Assembly: GCF_013267195.1 (NCBI RefSeq)
Contig: NZ_CP053941.1
Location: 2,418,001 to 2,482,000 of the forward strand
Length of the DNA stretch: 64,000 nucleotides
Source of the DNA: Halorubrum salinarum
Lineage (GTDB): Archaea > Halobacteriota > Halobacteria > Halobacteriales > Haloferacaceae
Direction: 5' to 3'
The notes under the pieces are model-generated. The model had not been told where the DNA came from, searched no databases, and saw only the letters and a program-made list of their open reading frames with translations. Below, piece by piece: positions 50,414-57,528 of this stretch. Position numbers and translations under genes: made by a program. Position 1 is the stretch's first letter; the number at the start of each line of letters is the position of its first letter.

Positions 50414-51103
50414 TCACTCGTCGTCGAACGCGGCGACGACGCGCTCCATGTCTCCCGCGACGCGCTCCGGGTCGATCCGCTCGCCGCGGTAGGCCCGTTC
50501 GACCACGCCGTCGGGGTTGACGAGCAGGGTCACGACGATGTGGGTGAAGTCGTAGCCCGGGAGGCGGTCGCTCTCCGTCGTCCGCTCGAAGCCGATCCCC
50601 AGTCGGTCTTCGACCACCGCCTTCGCGCGAGCCGGCGTCTCCGGCCGCAGGTAGAGCCAGTTGCCCGCCTCGAGGTCGGCGCCGATCGACTCGGCGTTGT
50701 CGCGGAGCGCCGCCGCGTCGTCGCGCTCCGGATCGAACGTGATCGGGATAAAGTACGTGTCGTCGGTCAGCCCCGCCGCCGCGACGCGGCGCTGTACCGT
50801 CGCCCACTGGCGGAGGAGGATCGAACACTCCGCGGGACAGAACGTGAACACGCCGGTCACGAGGGCGGTCCGGTCGAGCTCGTCGCTGTCGAACGTCTCG
50901 TCCGCGAGGGGAGCCGGCAGCTCGAACGACGGGAGCGGCTGGCCGTACGCGGGATACGCGAGGTCCTCGCTGTCCGCGAGCTGGTCCGACTGCGGATCGA
51001 GCACGACGTCGTCCGGGCTTCCACCGAACAGGCGCGACGTACAGCCCGCGACGGAGCCGGCGGCGGCCGTTCCGACGCCGGCGAGCAGCGTTCGTCGCTT
51101 CAT
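50414..51103 (-). CDS. SCO1/SenC-family copper chaperone (Tat lipoprotein)
   Basis: 229 residues. Tat-type signal KRRTLLAGVGTAAAGSVAGC with lipidated Cys near 21. Thioredoxin fold with the copper ligands CPAEC (CxxxC) near 119-123 and His in YDFTHIVVTLL near 192. It inserts copper into exported enzymes, typically the CuA site of cytochrome oxidase or nitrous oxide reductase. ATG 51103 is preferred to the longer frame. Its promoter carries the motif described at 51137-51156. Confidence 0.88.
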   Translation of the reverse strand: MKRRTLLAGVGTAAAGSVAGCTSRLFGGSPDDVVLDPQSDQLADSEDLAYPAYGQPLPSFELPAPLADETFDSDELDRTALVTGVFTFCPAECSILLRQWATVQRRVAAAGLTDDTYFIPITFDPERDDAAALRDNAESIGADLEAGNWLYLRPETPARAKAVVEDRLGIGFERTTESDRLPGYDFTHIVVTLLVNPDGVVERAYRGERIDPERVAGDMERVVAAFDDE

Positions 51104-51136
51104 ACCCGAGCGAAGGGGCGAGCGGCGCATAACGCG

Positions 51137-51156
51137 TCTGGTGCGATCGACGAACG
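51137..51156 (-). promoter_or_regulatory. Shared nos/copper promoter element (sco)
   Basis: Minus-strand sequence CGTTCGTCGATCGCACCAGA ends 34 nt before the start codon, followed by a weak TATA-like GTTATG. The same element occurs upstream of the genes starting at 52066 and 56830. Contains an imperfect GTTCG/CGNRC dyad. Confidence 0.7.
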
Positions 51157-51208
51157 CGAGCGACCCGGGTCTCGCGGGAGCGAGCGCGCGGCGAGTCGGT
51201 CGCCCGAG

Positions 51209-52066
51209 TCAAAACGGGGTGTAGTACGGGATCGGCGGGTGCGGCAGCGGCACGCCGAGCGTCGCGAGCCCGTGCTGGAGCGGGACGTATCCGAGGGCTA
51301 CGAAGGCGACGCCGAGCACCCGGTGGATCCGCAGCCGCGTTTCGAGACGCATCGACCCGAACACCGTACCGAAAAGCAGCAGCGACGGCACGGTGCCGAG
51401 GCCGAGGGCGCCGAGCGCGACCGTTCCCCCGAGCGCGCTCCCCTGAACGAACGCGTAGAGGAAGGCCGGGTACAGGAGCGGGCACGGGAGAAAGCCGTGC
51501 GCCGCCCCCAGACCGACGATCCGCCAGTCTCCGACCCACGCGTCGACGCGGGCGACGATCCGGTCGCTCACCGCGCTCGCCGCCCGGTCGAACCCCGGTA
51601 TCGGGACGGACTCCAGCCGGAGGCGGAGCGCGTAGCGCGCGCCGACGGCGATGATCACTCCGCCGACGAAGATGCCGGTGAGCGCGTGGACGTCGTCGGC
51701 GACGCCGGTGACCGTCCGCCCCGTGACGAACGCGAGGCTGCCGGCGAGACCGAAGGCCCCGCCGAGGGTCGCGTAGCTCGCCGTGCGTCCGAGGTTGAAG
51801 AGCGCGTGCTGGCGCACCTGGCGGAGGGTGAGGTCGTCGTCTCGCCCGCGACCGCCGCCGGCCTGCCCGGACCGCATCCGATCGGCGTAGGTGGTGACGA
51901 GCGGGCCACACATGCCGAGACAGTGCGCGCCGCCGAGCAGTCCGACGAGCAGGAAGACGCCGAGGCCGAGCGACTCGGTCGCGTACAGGGAGCCGCTCGG
52001 CTCACAGGTCGCCGTTCCGACGGCGTCGACGAGTCGAAGCGCCCCGGTATCGATGAGGACGTCCAT
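51209..52066 (-). CDS. TauE/SafE-like membrane protein with a metal-type GGAHCLGMCGP motif
   Basis: 285 residues with about six transmembrane segments. LVGLLGGAHCLGMCGPLVT near 41-60 and GAAHGFLPCPLLYPAFLYAF near 188-208 are the family cores, each with Cys or His residues in the membrane. Relatives (DsbD-like or CcoS/SenC-linked transporters) move reducing power or copper. The N-terminal Cys in AVGTATCEPS may be part of this. Position between sco and the regulator points to copper handling (inference). Confidence 0.8.
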   Translation of the reverse strand: MDVLIDTGALRLVDAVGTATCEPSGSLYATESLGLGVFLLVGLLGGAHCLGMCGPLVTTYADRMRSGQAGGGRGRDDDLTLRQVRQHALFNLGRTASYATLGGAFGLAGSLAFVTGRTVTGVADDVHALTGIFVGGVIIAVGARYALRLRLESVPIPGFDRAASAVSDRIVARVDAWVGDWRIVGLGAAHGFLPCPLLYPAFLYAFVQGSALGGTVALGALGLGTVPSLLLFGTVFGSMRLETRLRIHRVLGVAFVALGYVPLQHGLATLGVPLPHPPIPYYTPF

Positions 52067-52098
52067 ACCGGATCAACGACCGCAAGGTCGCTAACCGA

Positions 52099-52118
52099 TC
52101 TGGTGTGATCGGCGAACG
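52099..52118 (-). promoter_or_regulatory. Shared nos/copper promoter element (TauE/SafE-like gene)
   Basis: Minus-strand CGTTCGCCGATCACACCAGA ends 33 nt before the ATG at 52066, followed by GGTTAGCG at the TATA position. It matches the sco element in all but three bases. Confidence 0.7.
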
Positions 52119-52165
52119 GGCGCGAGCCCGGTTCACGCCGATCCCCTCGCCCGGCGCCCACGCCG

Positions 52166-52678
52166 TCACCCCTCGGCGTCGAGGAGCGAGTCGACCGTGC
52201 GGACAAAGCGGTCGACGAGCCGGTCGGGCAGCGACGGCGACACCTCGTCGAGGAGCGCGGCCGTCCGGTCCGGACGCGCCAGCGCGACGGTCATCGGCCG
52301 GTCGGGGGACTTCTCGACGATCCCGTGGTCCGCGAGCGTCGAGACGTGCCACGACACCGTGCTCTTCGCGAGGTCGAGGTCACCGGCGAGCGCCGCCGGC
52401 CGGGTTGGGCCGTCGGCGTGGAGCCTGACGACGATCTCGCGGGCCGTCTCCCGCCTGAGAAACGCGAGCGTCCGCCGGTCCCACGGATCGACCGCCGGAT
52501 CGAAGTAGTGCGCGCGCCCGCCGATGCGTTCGACCGCGAGCTCGCCGTCCCGGACGAGCCGGCGGAGGTGGTACTGCGCCTGTCCGGTCGCGATGTCGAG
52601 CTCGCGGCCGATCCGGTTGAAGTGGACGCCGGGGGCGTCGCGGACGTGGCGTCGGATCCTGTCTCTGGTGTCCGCCAT
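52166..52678 (-). CDS. Double winged-helix transcriptional regulator (ArsR/MarR-like)
   Basis: 170 residues, two winged-helix modules. The first (about 5-60) is HVRDAPGVHFNRIGRELDIATGQAQYHLRRLVRDGEL; the second (about 70-125) is LAFLRRETAREIVVRLHADGPTRPAALAGDLDLAKSTVSWHVSTLADHGIVEK. No ligand-binding domain is evident and there are no clustered cysteines. It lies in the middle of the copper/nos block, making it the nearest candidate to read the motif shared by the adjacent promoters (inference). A CTTTTATT element is the TATA box. Confidence 0.82.
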   Translation of the reverse strand: MADTRDRIRRHVRDAPGVHFNRIGRELDIATGQAQYHLRRLVRDGELAVERIGGRAHYFDPAVDPWDRRTLAFLRRETAREIVVRLHADGPTRPAALAGDLDLAKSTVSWHVSTLADHGIVEKSPDRPMTVALARPDRTAALLDEVSPSLPDRLVDRFVRTVDSLLDAEG

Positions 52679-52789
52679 TTTCGGGGGATCGACCTACCCC
52701 CGCTCGGAATAAAAGGCGCCCGTGCGGTCTCTCGCTCTGGGAACGGCGGCGGGGCACGTCTTCTTGTCGGTCGGCTCCCAAGGGCCGGT

Positions 52790-53143
52790 GTGACGCAGTC
52801 GCTCTCGGGGTCGGTGTCGGCGCTCGCCGGATGGTCCGTGGAGGGGTCGCTGCCGATCCTGGCGGTCGTGGTCGCCGCCGGACTCGGGACGAGTCTCCTC
52901 TTCGCCGTCAGCCTCGCCGCCTACCGACGCCGCCGGCAGGCGCAGTACCGACTGATCTCCCTCGCCGTCGGCGCGCTCCTGGCTCGGTCGGTGGTCGGCG
53001 TCGGAACCGTTCTGGGAGCCGTGCCGATGCCGGTCCACCACCTCCTCGCGCACAGCCTGGACTTCCTCATCGCCGCGACCGTCCTCTATGCGGTGTACGC
53101 CCACGCGCCCGGCGCGGTCGGCGACGACGCCGCCTCGGACTGA
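52790..53143 (+). CDS. Small membrane protein divergent from the regulator
   Basis: 117 residues, GTG start, about three transmembrane segments (about 22-45, 60-80 and 88-107), with a His-containing segment VPMPVHHLLAHSLDFLIAATV. Haloarchaeal genes of this type often neighbour winged-helix regulators. Function unknown, though the position within the nos block suggests a link. Confidence 0.6.
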   Translation: MTQSLSGSVSALAGWSVEGSLPILAVVVAAGLGTSLLFAVSLAAYRRRRQAQYRLISLAVGALLARSVVGVGTVLGAVPMPVHHLLAHSLDFLIAATVLYAVYAHAPGAVGDDAASD

Positions 53144-53157
53144 GCCGAGCGACGCGC

Positions 53158-54021
53158 CTACCGGCCGACGCTCCCGCGGAGGCGTTCGACCGCGACGCCG
53201 ACGCGGGGCCCGAACGCGACGGCGGCGACGGAGACGACGGTCCCGCCGACGGTCCACCCGACGAGCGAGGCCACCGCCCGCCCGGTCTGGACGAACCCGC
53301 CCTCCGGCGCGAAGGCGACGCCGATCACGTGCTCGAAGACGAGTCCCCGGAACGCACCGTTCGGGGAGAGCGCGACCGACCCGGCGATCCCGCCCGGCGA
53401 CGCCCCGGCCGACAGCGATCGAAGCACCGCGAGGTCGCCGGCGAGAACGCCGCCGAGCAGCGCGAGGAGGGCGAGCGCGACCGCGCTCCGCCGGCTCGTC
53501 GCGACCGTCGACACCGCCGCCGAGAGCGCGAGGTACGCCGCGCCGAACGGCACGACGAGCGCGATGAAGCGGACGAAAAGCACCGGCGAGTCGACACCGG
53601 CGTGCGTCGCGAAGATGCCCGTGTCCGGCGCGGCGGTGAGCCACACGTAGGCGCCGACGAGCGCGAACGGGCCGCCCACGAGCGCGACGAGCGCGACCGT
53701 CCGGGCGAGCAGCACCCCGAAGACGTACCCGGTCGCGCTCACCGGATACGTCCGGATCACGCTGAGCTCCCCGCTCGCGGCGTCGGCGAACAGCGAGCGG
53801 TACCCGAGCACGACCGCCAGCAGCGGCACAAGCACCTCGGCGGGCAACAGCAGGTCGACGACCGCGGGCACGAACCCGGTCGCGCCGCCGCCCCCGACCG
53901 CGACGAGGCCGGCGAGGACGACAAGCAGCCCGGCAGCGAGAACGGCGTACCCGGGCGTCCGGCGCACCGTGACCAGCTCGCGCCGGAAGACGACCCACAC
54001 GCCGCCGAACGGAGAGTTCAC
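53158..54021 (-). CDS. nosY: NosY-like ABC transporter permease
   Basis: 287 residues with six transmembrane segments. GGVWVVFRRELVTVRRTPGYAV opens the protein, and FVRFIALVVPFGAAYLALSAAVS is an ABC-2-type core. GTG 54021 overlaps the TGA of the ATPase gene (GTGA), so it is coupled to it. With NosF and NosD it forms the NosDFY complex that helps assemble the copper centre of nitrous oxide reductase. Assignment is by context and fold. Confidence 0.82.
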   Translation of the reverse strand: MNSPFGGVWVVFRRELVTVRRTPGYAVLAAGLLVVLAGLVAVGGGGATGFVPAVVDLLLPAEVLVPLLAVVLGYRSLFADAASGELSVIRTYPVSATGYVFGVLLARTVALVALVGGPFALVGAYVWLTAAPDTGIFATHAGVDSPVLFVRFIALVVPFGAAYLALSAAVSTVATSRRSAVALALLALLGGVLAGDLAVLRSLSAGASPGGIAGSVALSPNGAFRGLVFEHVIGVAFAPEGGFVQTGRAVASLVGWTVGGTVVSVAAVAFGPRVGVAVERLRGSVGR

Positions 54022-54815
54022 CGGTCGGACACCCCCGTGACGTGGACCGACTCGGCGTCGGCTCCGCCGCTCTCTCCGCCCTCCTCCGCCCCGCCGCCCG
54101 CGGGCGACGACGCCCCGTCGGTGCCGGCCGCGACCGCGCGGTACAGCGCCGCGACGTCGTCGACCCCCCGCTCGTCGAGGAGGCGCTCGCGGCGCCCGGC
54201 CGCGGCGATCCGGCCGCGGCGGAGGACGACGACCGCGTCGGCGTGGGCGTCGACGAGGTCGAGGTCGTGCGAGCTGACGACGACGGCGGCGTCGTCGCCC
54301 GCCCGCGCCGCCGCGCGGAACGCCCGCTCTCGCATCTCCGGGTCGAGCCCGCTCGTCGGCTCGTCGAGGACGACGACGTCCGGGTCGCCGAGCCTCGCCT
54401 GTGCGATCCCGAGCAACCGCCGCATCCCGCCGGAGAGGTCCGCGACCCGCTTCCCGGCCGCGTCCGAGAGCCCGACCGCCGCCAGCGCCGCGTCGGGGTC
54501 GCCGCCAGCGAGCGCCGCGTAGAACCCGAGGGTCTCTCGGGCGGTGAACCCGTCTCGGAACGGTACCCGCTGCGGGAGGTAGCCGACGCGCTTCTCCGAC
54601 CCCGAGCGCGGACCGCCCTCGGGGTACCGGACCGTCCCCGCGGTGGGTTCGACCGCGCCGCTCAGGACCCCGAGCAGCGTCGACTTGCCGGAGCCGTTGG
54701 GACCGATGACGGCGGTGACGCCCGTCCCGACCGACAGTGAGACGTCGTCGAGCACCGCGACGCCGCCGTAGGTGCGCGTGACGCCGTCGAGCGCCGCGAG
54801 CGTGCGGTCGCTCAT
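54018..54815 (-). CDS. nosF: NosF-like ABC transporter ATPase
   Basis: 265 residues. Walker A GPNGSGKSTLLG near 38-49, Q-loop YLPQRVPFR, signature LSGGMRRLLGIAQA, Walker B VVVLDEPTSGLDP and switch His in VSSHDLDLV. A disordered C-terminal tail of about 45 residues. Overlaps both neighbours by a few bases, typical for a NosDFY operon. It drives transport or remodelling by NosY. Confidence 0.88.
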   Translation of the reverse strand: MSDRTLAALDGVTRTYGGVAVLDDVSLSVGTGVTAVIGPNGSGKSTLLGVLSGAVEPTAGTVRYPEGGPRSGSEKRVGYLPQRVPFRDGFTARETLGFYAALAGGDPDAALAAVGLSDAAGKRVADLSGGMRRLLGIAQARLGDPDVVVLDEPTSGLDPEMRERAFRAAARAGDDAAVVVSSHDLDLVDAHADAVVVLRRGRIAAAGRRERLLDERGVDDVAALYRAVAAGTDGASSPAGGGAEEGGESGGADAESVHVTGVSDR

Positions 54816-56830
54816 CCGGCCCCCTCCGCGGTCGCCGTGGCGTTCCCGTCCGCTCCGGCGGCGGAGCGCCACGACGACTCGACCGGGTCGCCGTCCGACT
54901 CCGCGACGGCGGCGAGCCGGTCGGGGTGATACGGTTCGGCCGCGGGCGCCGGATCGATGATGCTCCCCGAGCGCGCCCCGGGCACGGTCCCGCGGAGCGC
55001 GTCGAGCAGCCGCGCGGCGGGGGACCCACGCACCGTTACCGCGCTCACCGTCCGGTGGAGCGCCCCGTCGACCGGCGACGTCGGGCGGTACGCCCGTTCG
55101 CCAGGACCGCGCGGTCCGACGTTCGCGCCCTCCCAGAAGTTCCCCCGGCCGCCGTCGGCCCACACGCGCAGCGCGCCGGCCCCGGCCGCCGCGTGGTCCG
55201 CGTTGCCGACGAAGTCGTTGGCGACGACCCGACTGGAGGGGACGACCGTCGTCGCCCGCGCCCCGAGCTCGTTGCCGACGACGACGTTGTGCTCGTACAG
55301 CGACCCGCGGGCGCTCGTGGAGAAGCCGAGCTCGTTGTCGACGAGCGTGTTGTAGCCGACGTACGTCCGCGTTCCAGACGCCTGGATCCCCGCGCTGGAG
55401 TCGCGGACGTCGTTGCCGACGATCGCGTTCCCGGCCGGCCGCGTCATCACGGTCACCCCGGCGAACAGCTCATTTCGGAAGACGTTGTCCGCGACCAGCG
55501 CGTCCCCGGTGTACATGAGGTGCGTCCCGTACCGGTTGTCGACGAACGTCGAGTTCCGAACGACGGAGCCGTCGGCGCGGTGGAGGTAGATCCCGTCTCG
55601 CCCGCCCTCGAACCGGCTGTCCGTGACGGTGACGCGCGACTCCATCCCTGTGATGCCCATGAACCCCGCCTGCCACTCGTCGGTCCCGTGGACGACGAGC
55701 CCGCTCGCGGTCGCGTGAGAACCCGATCGCAGCAGGAGCCCGCTCGCGTTCGTGTCCACGACCACCTCGTCGACGACGAGGCCCGGCGCGCCGACGGCCT
55801 TCACTCCGGCGTCGCCGTGGCCGTAGCCGAGCTGGATGTTCGTGTCCCACGTACCGCCCTCCGGGTCCCGGGACTGACGGGCGGCTTCCGGGTCCCGGGT
55901 TCGGTTCCCCGTTCCCGCGATTCGCAGCCCCGTGAGCGCCACGTCGGCCGCGCGGACGGTGACCACCGAGCCGGTGCCGTTGCCGACGATCCGGGTCGCG
56001 GCCGCGTCGCCCCGCCCGGCGCTCGCGCCGGCGATCGTCACGGACCGGTTCACGGTCACCGTCTCCTCGTAGGTCCCGGGCGGGACGCGGACTGTCGTGT
56101 TCGGCGGCGCCGCCGCGACCGCTGCGGAGACGGTGGGGGCGTCCTCGCCGACGACGACGGAGACCGGTCGGTCCGCGCGCCGTTCCGCGGCCGCGAGCCG
56201 CTGGTTCGCCGTCCGCCAGCGGTCCGCGGCGAGCGACCGCACGGTCGCCGCGGAGTCGACGTCGTACGACCGGGTCCGGACCGCCTCCCACCCGACGACC
56301 GACCCGCCGTGGTCGTCGGCGAACGCCGCCGCCGCCTCGCGGCCGCGGAACGGGACGACGACTTCGCCCGACGGCGTCTCGGCGTCGCTGCCGACGACGT
56401 AGAACGCCTCGTCGACCGGCGTCCACCCGCCTGCCCCGCCCGCCGCGAAGAGTCCGGACTCGGTCGTGCCCGGGTCTCGGTGATCGAACGTCTCCACGTA
56501 CGCGACGAGCGGGTAGCCGAACTGTCGCTCGGTCCGCCCGTCTCCGCGCGAGTCGACGAACGAGGCGATCCCGTTGTAGCCGACGACGTACTGGAGCTGC
56601 GAGTAGAACACCTGGACGCGCGGGAGCGTCGCATCGCCCGCCATCAGGGCGTCCGTCTCCGAGGAGAGCCCCAACTCGACCGCGTCCTCGAAGCGCACCG
56701 GCTCGGGGACCGACTCGCTCGGGTCCGCGGCGAACGCGCCCGCGGTCCCCACGGCCGCGAGGGCGACGAGCGCGACGGCCGCGAGACGGAGGCGACGCGA
56801 CTGGGCGGTAGCGGGGTCGAAAACTGCCAC
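54812..56830 (-). CDS. nosD: NosD-like parallel beta-helix maturation protein
   Basis: 672 residues, GTG start. N-terminal signal segment LRLAAVALVALAAVGTAGAFAADP (split by 20 residues) for export, then about 190 residues that include a putative NosL/NosX-like module (FSQ..VVGYNGIASF and FYVVGSDAETPSGEVVVPFRGR), and from about 250 a right-handed beta-helix with repeated NxxxGxxL-type turns (YLHRADGSVVRNSTFVDNRYGTHL). A C-terminal part follows. It binds copper or the enzyme during nitrous oxide reductase assembly. It is longer than most bacterial NosD (about 450 residues) because of the N-terminal extension. Confidence 0.87.
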   Translation of the reverse strand: MAVFDPATAQSRRLRLAAVALVALAAVGTAGAFAADPSESVPEPVRFEDAVELGLSSETDALMAGDATLPRVQVFYSQLQYVVGYNGIASFVDSRGDGRTERQFGYPLVAYVETFDHRDPGTTESGLFAAGGAGGWTPVDEAFYVVGSDAETPSGEVVVPFRGREAAAAFADDHGGSVVGWEAVRTRSYDVDSAATVRSLAADRWRTANQRLAAAERRADRPVSVVVGEDAPTVSAAVAAAPPNTTVRVPPGTYEETVTVNRSVTIAGASAGRGDAAATRIVGNGTGSVVTVRAADVALTGLRIAGTGNRTRDPEAARQSRDPEGGTWDTNIQLGYGHGDAGVKAVGAPGLVVDEVVVDTNASGLLLRSGSHATASGLVVHGTDEWQAGFMGITGMESRVTVTDSRFEGGRDGIYLHRADGSVVRNSTFVDNRYGTHLMYTGDALVADNVFRNELFAGVTVMTRPAGNAIVGNDVRDSSAGIQASGTRTYVGYNTLVDNELGFSTSARGSLYEHNVVVGNELGARATTVVPSSRVVANDFVGNADHAAAGAGALRVWADGGRGNFWEGANVGPRGPGERAYRPTSPVDGALHRTVSAVTVRGSPAARLLDALRGTVPGARSGSIIDPAPAAEPYHPDRLAAVAESDGDPVESSWRSAAGADGNATATAEGAG

Positions 56831-56862
56831 GCGAGTACTTCGATCGCCGGCGACTTAGGGCG

Positions 56863-56882
56863 TCTGGTTCGTTCCTCGAACG
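56863..56882 (-). promoter_or_regulatory. Shared nos/copper promoter element (nosD)
   Basis: Minus-strand CGTTCGAGGAACGAACCAGA ends 33 nt before the nosD start; CCTAAG follows at the TATA position. The dyad GTTCG-N5-CGAAC is perfect here. Confidence 0.7.
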
Positions 56883-56897
56883 CGCCGCTGAACGCGT

Positions 56898-56911
56898 CCA
56901 GAGGGGCTAAG
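56898..56911 (+). promoter_or_regulatory. nosL promoter with the CCAGA end of the shared element
   Basis: CCAGA at 56898-56902, then GGGGCTAAG with the weak TATA-like GCTAAG. Its last A is 33 nt before the ATG at 56935, matching the three minus-strand promoters. The upstream half of the element is not conserved here, apart from a GAACG block. Confidence 0.5.
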
Positions 56912-56934
56912 AGGCAGGTACTCCAAATCTGACC

Positions 56935-57528
56935 ATGACGAAACGCGACCCATCGACTCCAACGCCCGCCAGCTCGATGAGCGTCCCGCGGCGTCGAGTG
57001 CTCGCCGGAATCGCCGCCGCAGGGATCGGTTCCGTCGCCGGTTGCGCCGGCGGTGGGTCGAACTCGATCGCCCCGGTCTCCATCGACGACGACCAGGCAT
57101 GCGACCAGTGCGGCATGATCGTCGCGGACCACCCGGGAACGGTCGGGCAGGTCCACTTCGAGGACGACGAACCGGAGGGCGGTCGCCCGGCGCAGTTCTG
57201 TAGCGCCACCTGTACGTACACGTACCGGTTCGACGCCGAAGACTCCGGGCGCACGCCGCTCGCGACGTTTCTCACCGACTACTCCGCGGTCGAGCAGGAG
57301 GTGTTCGAGGAGGGCGGCGACACGATGTTCTCCTCGCACGTCGACAGCGAGGCGTTCGCCCGCGAGCCCTCCCTCACCGTCGTCGCGCGCAGCGAGGTGA
57401 TCGGCGCGATGGGACCCGACCTGATCCCGTTCAGCGAGAAGGGCGACGTCGAGTCGTTCGTCGCCGAGTACGGAGGCAAGACGATGCCCGCGACCGAGGT
57501 GGACCGCGCGACGCTCGAAGCACTGTGA
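56935..57528 (+). CDS. nosL: NosL-like copper-binding lipoprotein
   Basis: 197 residues. Tat-type signal RRRVLAGIAAAGIGSVAGC with lipobox Cys, then CDQCGMIVADHPG near 56-68, the NosL copper ligands (Cys/Met), and FCSATCTYTY. NosL delivers Cu(I) to nitrous oxide reductase outside the cell. Transcribed divergently from nosD; the intergenic space is 104 nt. Confidence 0.9.
   Translation: MTKRDPSTPTPASSMSVPRRRVLAGIAAAGIGSVAGCAGGGSNSIAPVSIDDDQACDQCGMIVADHPGTVGQVHFEDDEPEGGRPAQFCSATCTYTYRFDAEDSGRTPLATFLTDYSAVEQEVFEEGGDTMFSSHVDSEAFAREPSLTVVARSEVIGAMGPDLIPFSEKGDVESFVAEYGGKTMPATEVDRATLEAL

Follow-up and report, generated by a model that had tools for sequence, protein, structure and literature searches.

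In a 64 kb stretch of the 3.34 Mb Halorubrum salinarum genome (the window, meaning that whole stretch), three genes of a nos-type block, namely sco, a DsbD_2 (TauE/SafE-like) membrane protein gene and nosD, are preceded by a bipartite element of about 20 nt in which TTCG-N8-ACCAGA is conserved and the middle is variable. This 20-mer is probably the site of a single factor, most likely the PF24266 tandem winged-helix protein encoded in the same block, which would control a regulon for periplasmic copper/iron handling in haloarchaea. Judged from sequence, the element probably marks an undescribed metal-handling regulon together with its likely regulator. The three copies, scored with a position weight matrix (PWM) trained on Halorubrum element copies, and the hexamers that follow them are:

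51137..51156, minus strand: element of sco, CGTTCGTCGATCGCACCAGA, last base at -34 from the start codon, 37.8 bits
51128..51133, minus strand: weak TATA-like hexamer of sco, GTTATG, kept in Halorubrum orthologues
52099..52118, minus strand: element of the DsbD_2/TauE-like gene, CGTTCGCCGATCACACCAGA, last base at -33, 38.1 bits
52090..52095, minus strand: weak TATA-like hexamer of the DsbD_2 gene, GTTAGC, kept in relatives
56863..56882, minus strand: element of nosD, CGTTCGAGGAACGAACCAGA, with the perfect dyad GTTCG-N5-CGAAC, last base at -33, 37.7 bits
56854..56859, minus strand: weak TATA-like hexamer of nosD, CCTAAG, conserved

The 20-mers, their strand, their spacing and the TATA-like hexamers had been proposed in a first-pass annotation of this DNA, and all were verified in the window sequence; the gap to the start codon is 33, 32 and 32 nt for sco, DsbD_2 and nosD, respectively. 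Pairwise identity between the promoters is 75-90% within the 20-mer and 35-38% over the 40 nt upstream, so the likeness does not derive from a duplicated promoter, an origin that these flanks rule out. The exact pattern CGTTCGNNGANCNNACCAGA has three matches in the whole genome, all in the block, and a tighter pattern with at most three mismatches has 15, the best two outside the window being the sco and nosL promoters of a plasmid cluster. TTCG-N8-ACCAGA occurs at nine sites genome-wide, against a composition expectation of approximately two, and six of these lie within the chromosomal and plasmid clusters. The PWM scan of the 64 kb returned exactly the three sites (37.7-38.1 bits) and nothing else of at least 6 bits; the element is not scattered across the genome at random. 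The GTTATG hexamer of sco contains an in-frame ATG, and gene callers may place the sco start at 51130, 27 nt early; the conserved spacing and the MKRR signal favor 51103.

The element is a conserved feature of the genus. The block nosD was found in 49/52 Halorubrum genomes, and across Halorubrum loci the element precedes nosD, sco and DsbD_2, as well as nosL in rearranged and plasmid clusters. When sites 30-40 nt before starts were counted, 130 of the 137 distinct Halorubrum sites stood 32-33 nt before the start codon; a wider look outside the genus (15-75 nt) gave the same spacing. The Halorubrum consensus is cGTTCGannnnCGcACCAGA, followed by TA at +6/+7. Such conservation at 32-33 nt in the orthologous promoters of relatives, where the first-pass annotation had proposed to look, together with the rarity of the element genome-wide, supports the earlier claim of one shared, position-locked element that is probably bound by one factor.

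The dyad of the nosD site is restricted to one arrangement. GTTCG-N5-CGAAC is perfect in every listed locus with nosL divergent from nosD, except L092 (4/5 arm matches), and in none of the listed loci where nosL is not divergent from nosD. In other contexts the right arm varies and bases pair across the dyad as often as independence would predict; pair 4/14 fails at the majority of sites, and a general dyad model is thereby ruled out. Because the right arm varies and pairing shows no excess outside divergent nosD/nosL contexts, the element is made up of two unlike half-sites, TTCG-N8-ACCAGA, and is asymmetric except between divergent nosD/nosL promoters. A fourth copy had also been suggested at nosL, from the following sequences:

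56898..56912, plus strand: CCAGA (56898-56902) and GCTAAG, nosL core promoter

The CCAGA is present in the window, but most relatives have CCCGA or CCGGA at this position (consensus TCCNGAGGGnCTAAG) and the TTCG left half is absent; this non-conservation and the missing half rule it out as an element copy.

The same genome holds a second cluster, DsbD_2-sco-PF24266-DUF7471-nosL, on a 248 kb contig (C2, 131 to 137 kb; L060, L034, L035), with a transposase-like open reading frame after its nosL. Element copies stand 33 and 32 nt before this second sco and second nosL, and the DsbD_2 gene there is also preceded by the element. The plasmid PF24266 paralogue is 76% identical to the block regulator, and the cluster has a DUF7471 protein of its own.

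The survey of the order covered 392 genomes from 95 genera. A 26-base form, GTTCG-N5-C-N2-ACCAGA-N5-TA, was found in 61/392 genomes, with very few matches for the reversed control, and an 18-base core, TTCGA-N4-CG-N-ACCAGA, in 231/392 genomes and 68/95 genera, with four matches for its reversed control. Near 30 non-Halorubrum PF24266 genes, 45 PWM hits of at least 13 bits were detected; column-shuffled matrices gave 0.3 on average and never more than 2. The spacing is retained as well: 69/78 non-Halorubrum sites lie 31-35 nt before the start, mostly 32-35 nt. In the model organism Halobacterium salinarum DSM 3754 (L284), the regulator and DUF7471 are retained, nosD and nosF are decayed and the locus carries no element, indicating that local targets have been lost. 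A separate sequence, TTCGAACGTCGAACCAGA, occurs in several genomes (L344:632-895, L345:2286-2549 and same-sequence matches) 49 nt before a gene for an 88-aa zinc-finger-like protein with a weak DUF7410 match; as its spacing differs, it is probably another element.

A Pfam scan of the 72 proteins encoded directly downstream of the element returned DUF7405 in 21, DUF7350 in 18, together with P19-type Iron_transport in 16, Dyp_perox_C matches and NosL in 11 each, SCO1 in 6, NosD in 5 and a plastocyanin-type (blue-copper) domain in 1. A CopC-CopD fusion follows one further site (L338), its start 23 nt away and hence nearer than usual. At regulator-centred loci, the element accompanies sco in 16/17 cases, P19 in 23/26 and DUF7405 in 13/19. 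Going by these predicted domains, the target set is one of periplasmic copper, possibly iron, handling. Sequence searches of the PDB gave no match for P19/DUF7350 and, for DUF7405, nothing but a low-complexity signal-peptide match. At four loci (L384, L385, L386 and L387), back-to-back elements lie between DUF7405 and an unannotated membrane protein of ~367 aa with a HSGTTHAGTPHW motif; the L384 copy of this protein has no Pfam match, and the protein is likely a new metal-handling family.

The block in which the three sites lie comprises the following genes:

50414..51103, minus strand: sco, twin-arginine translocation (Tat) lipoprotein, SCO1/SenC copper chaperone (PF02630, E=5.5e-12)
51209..52066, minus strand: DsbD_2 membrane protein, TauE/SafE-like, CcdA-type (PF13386, E=3.6e-48)
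52166..52678, minus strand: tandem winged-helix protein of the HVO_0163_N type, 170 aa, candidate element-binding factor (PF24266, E=6.1e-34)
52790..53143, plus strand: DUF7471 small membrane protein, candidate sensor (PF24283, E=8.5e-30)
53158..54021, minus strand: nosY-like ABC-2 permease (weak PF12679; overlaps nosF; synteny kept)
54018..54815, minus strand: nosF-like ABC ATPase (PF00005, E=1.2e-24)
54812..56830, minus strand: nosD-like gene with a GTG start (PF05048 and PF05573)
56935..57528, plus strand: nosL, divergent from nosD (PF05573, E=5.2e-35)

The block nosD scores 162 bits against TIGR04247, under the 300-bit cut-off. A NosL-like stretch lies N-terminal of its NosD domain, as also in locus L184, and such fusions may mislead nosL/nosD annotation in haloarchaea.

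The element is most likely bound by the PF24266 protein of the block, as its occurrence and gene neighborhood suggest. The protein is a clear member of the family (116.4 bits; gathering cut-off 31), and its AlphaFold2 model comprises two winged helices (pLDDT, the predicted local distance difference test, 87.6) for which Foldseek finds MarR/ArsR-type proteins as nearest folds; against the ArsR/SmtB model NF033788 it scores 40.3 bits and does not reach the curated cut-off of 55. PF24266 is present in 332/392 genomes and in 60/61 of those with the 26-base element (Fisher p=2e-4); in the sole exception, no gene follows the element match. A close regulator orthologue occurs in exactly the 49/52 Halorubrum genomes that have the block, and 12/20 non-Halorubrum element matches with a known regulator position lie at most 7 kb from the regulator. 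Moreover, PF24266 is the DNA-binding gene that adjoins the element in chromosomal, plasmid and non-Halorubrum clusters whose other targets differ. Two unlike DNA-reading domains per chain would suit two unlike half-sites. One nos cluster (L080, G045:C1:1051388-1053012) carries the PF24266 gene in two tandem copies ~1.1 kb apart. In the literature searched, from which preprints and most subscription papers fell outside the scope, we found no function, site or regulon for the PF24266 family (HVO_0163 appears only in an acetylome paper), and no description of the element in work on HVO_0163, DUF7350, copper regulators or haloarchaeal promoter motifs.

DUF7471 stands divergently beside 42/46 Halorubrum regulators. 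Its HHxxxH motif was present in 134/134 DUF7471 readings, of which L152 at least looks wrong-frame, and the protein may be a membrane metal sensor acting through these invariant residues. We tentatively consider that DUF7471 and PF24266 could form an undescribed two-gene metal-sensing switch, in which DUF7471 would bind copper (or heme/iron) via HHxxxH and govern a cytoplasmic activator that reads TTCG-N8-ACCAGA beside the TATA box, for a copper/iron acquisition and delivery regulon spanning most haloarchaeal families.

In the mechanism we propose, the PF24266 protein would read TTCG(A) and ACCAGA, two different half-sites 8 bp apart. At ~-53 to -34, the element would abut the transcription factor B recognition element (BRE)/TATA region of the target promoter, and a start codon ~27 nt downstream of the weak TATA box, counted from its TA, would fit a leaderless transcript. 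The protein may then act as an activator that recruits TATA-binding protein (TBP) and transcription factor B (TFB), as GvpE does from its 20-nt upstream activating sequence (UAS). Activation is suggested by the weakness of these TATA boxes and by the locked distance from site to TATA, and is favored because the GvpE activation site is likewise 20 nt, bipartite, beside the BRE and distance-dependent (PMC4390858); it thus appears distinctly more probable than repression. Between divergent nosD and nosL, the perfect-dyad site would probably act on both. Copper or copper/iron status is the probable signal, and DUF7471 may sense it with its HHxxxH.

Several observations weigh against this assignment. 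Targets such as P19 and the Dyp-like proteins may suggest iron instead of copper, and the regulator has no obvious metal site and, across 42 sequences, no Cys at any position that is invariant or nearly so. In some genera the regulator is retained with no recognizable element nearby (L151, L154, L155); at non-Halorubrum regulator-centred loci, only 12/26 nosD and 1/10 DsbD_2 genes have a site scoring at least 8. The genomes are related, such that the counts are not independent events and overstate independence. Several element copies lie distant from any PF24266 listed in the same genome (G403, G160, G071, G285). Finally, the element covers the BRE position, which would also suit a repressor.

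This last point leads to the alternative that survives best, although we consider it unlikely: the same element and regulator, but with the protein blocking TFB/TBP at the BRE and released on metal or another signal. Counted from the start codon, ACCAGA occupies ~-39 to -34, on the BRE position, and the nearest folds are those of MarR/ArsR-type winged-helix proteins, which are commonly repressors. The poor TATA boxes (GTTATG, GTTAGC, CCTAAG) fit dependence on an activator, and a 20-nt bipartite site held at a fixed distance upstream of BRE/TATA is the layout of GvpE activation (PMC4390858). It is rather improbable that an unlinked regulator binds the element while PF24266 merely travels with the targets. 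The copies distant from PF24266 are what this would predict, but PF24266 adjoins the element in cluster types with otherwise different targets and is missing from a single element genome, whose match has no following gene.

We regard it as very improbable that the element is a NarO-type site for denitrification or for the response to oxygen, although GTTCG and CGAAC half-sites are common to both, both lie upstream of nos-type genes and the first-pass annotation had hinted at such a kinship. The CGAAC-N2-GTTCG motif belongs to Haloferax denitrification promoters and is located at -66 to -79 before the ATG in H. mediterranei (PMC10062603); the haloarchaeal denitrification motif or NarO-type site, CGAAYATDKTYG, is taken from the same source and, as cited in it, from Hattori 2016. 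Compared with this CGAAC-N2(to 4)-GTTCG arrangement, the element reads GTTCG-N5-CGNAC and then CAGA, with reversed half-site order, other spacing and a different position (~-53 to -34), and it alone has the asymmetric ACCAGA half. None of the 30 Halorubrum nosZ loci carries the element at a PWM score of at least 8, whereas 12/30 carry the CGAAC-N2-GTTCG motif; the motif of nosZ promoters in the genus is CGAACGTGTTCG, not the element. Both motifs are therefore present within Halorubrum, even in a single genome, each on its own set of genes. The earlier label of a nitrous-oxide-reductase maturation block fails likewise. In the Halorubrum salinarum genome, nosZ lies 430 kb off the block (C1:2899758) with its own nosD adjoining, 30% identical to the block nosD, and its motif is of the NarO type. 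Across Halorubrum, nosZ is present in 30/52 genomes and the block in 49/52, and 19/49 block genomes lack nosZ, 17 of these being at least 90% complete. A block that is unlinked to nosZ and often occurs without it is not one for denitrification or N2O-reductase maturation, and P19, DUF7405 and CopC-CopD are not denitrification genes. Lastly, a core-promoter style or chance likeness with no dedicated factor, for which one could cite the overlap with the BRE region and the part shared by nosL, is refuted by the genome-wide counts: hits exceed those of column-shuffled matrices ~150-fold and lie far above reversed patterns, and most genes have no element.

The haloarchaeal control of copper delivery is poorly known, and a Haloferax mediterranei genome survey reports no regulator tied to copper (PMC9240420). 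The present data offer a site that can be tested, name PF24266 as candidate regulator and DUF7471 as candidate membrane sensor, and list targets, with DUF7405, DUF7350 and DUF7471 among them as families of unknown function. They also set the nosDFYL-sco block apart from N2O reduction and caution against its annotation as a nosZ maturation cluster.

Among known systems, CopR of Pyrococcus furiosus, presented as a copper-homeostasis regulator (PMC7830388), offers an archaeal parallel for the role in copper homeostasis predicted here; the proposed regulon differs in that its proteins serve delivery and acquisition (Sco, Nos, CopC-CopD, P19). The closest likeness in layout is the GvpE UAS of haloarchaeal gas-vesicle promoters, which spans 20 nt, comprises two half-sites with an unimportant spacer, lies at a fixed distance directly beside BRE/TATA, fails when moved away and forms overlapping sites between divergent promoters (PMC4390858). 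The element has this type of layout, with 32-33 nt to the start and TA at +6/+7 after the site. Its sequence and targets differ, and no gvp genes were found among the inspected targets; GvpE is leucine-zipper-like, whereas the candidate here is a tandem winged helix, and activation would hold by analogy. As an intergenic site of fixed geometry across most haloarchaeal families, the element would make a good model for TATA-adjacent activation in archaea.

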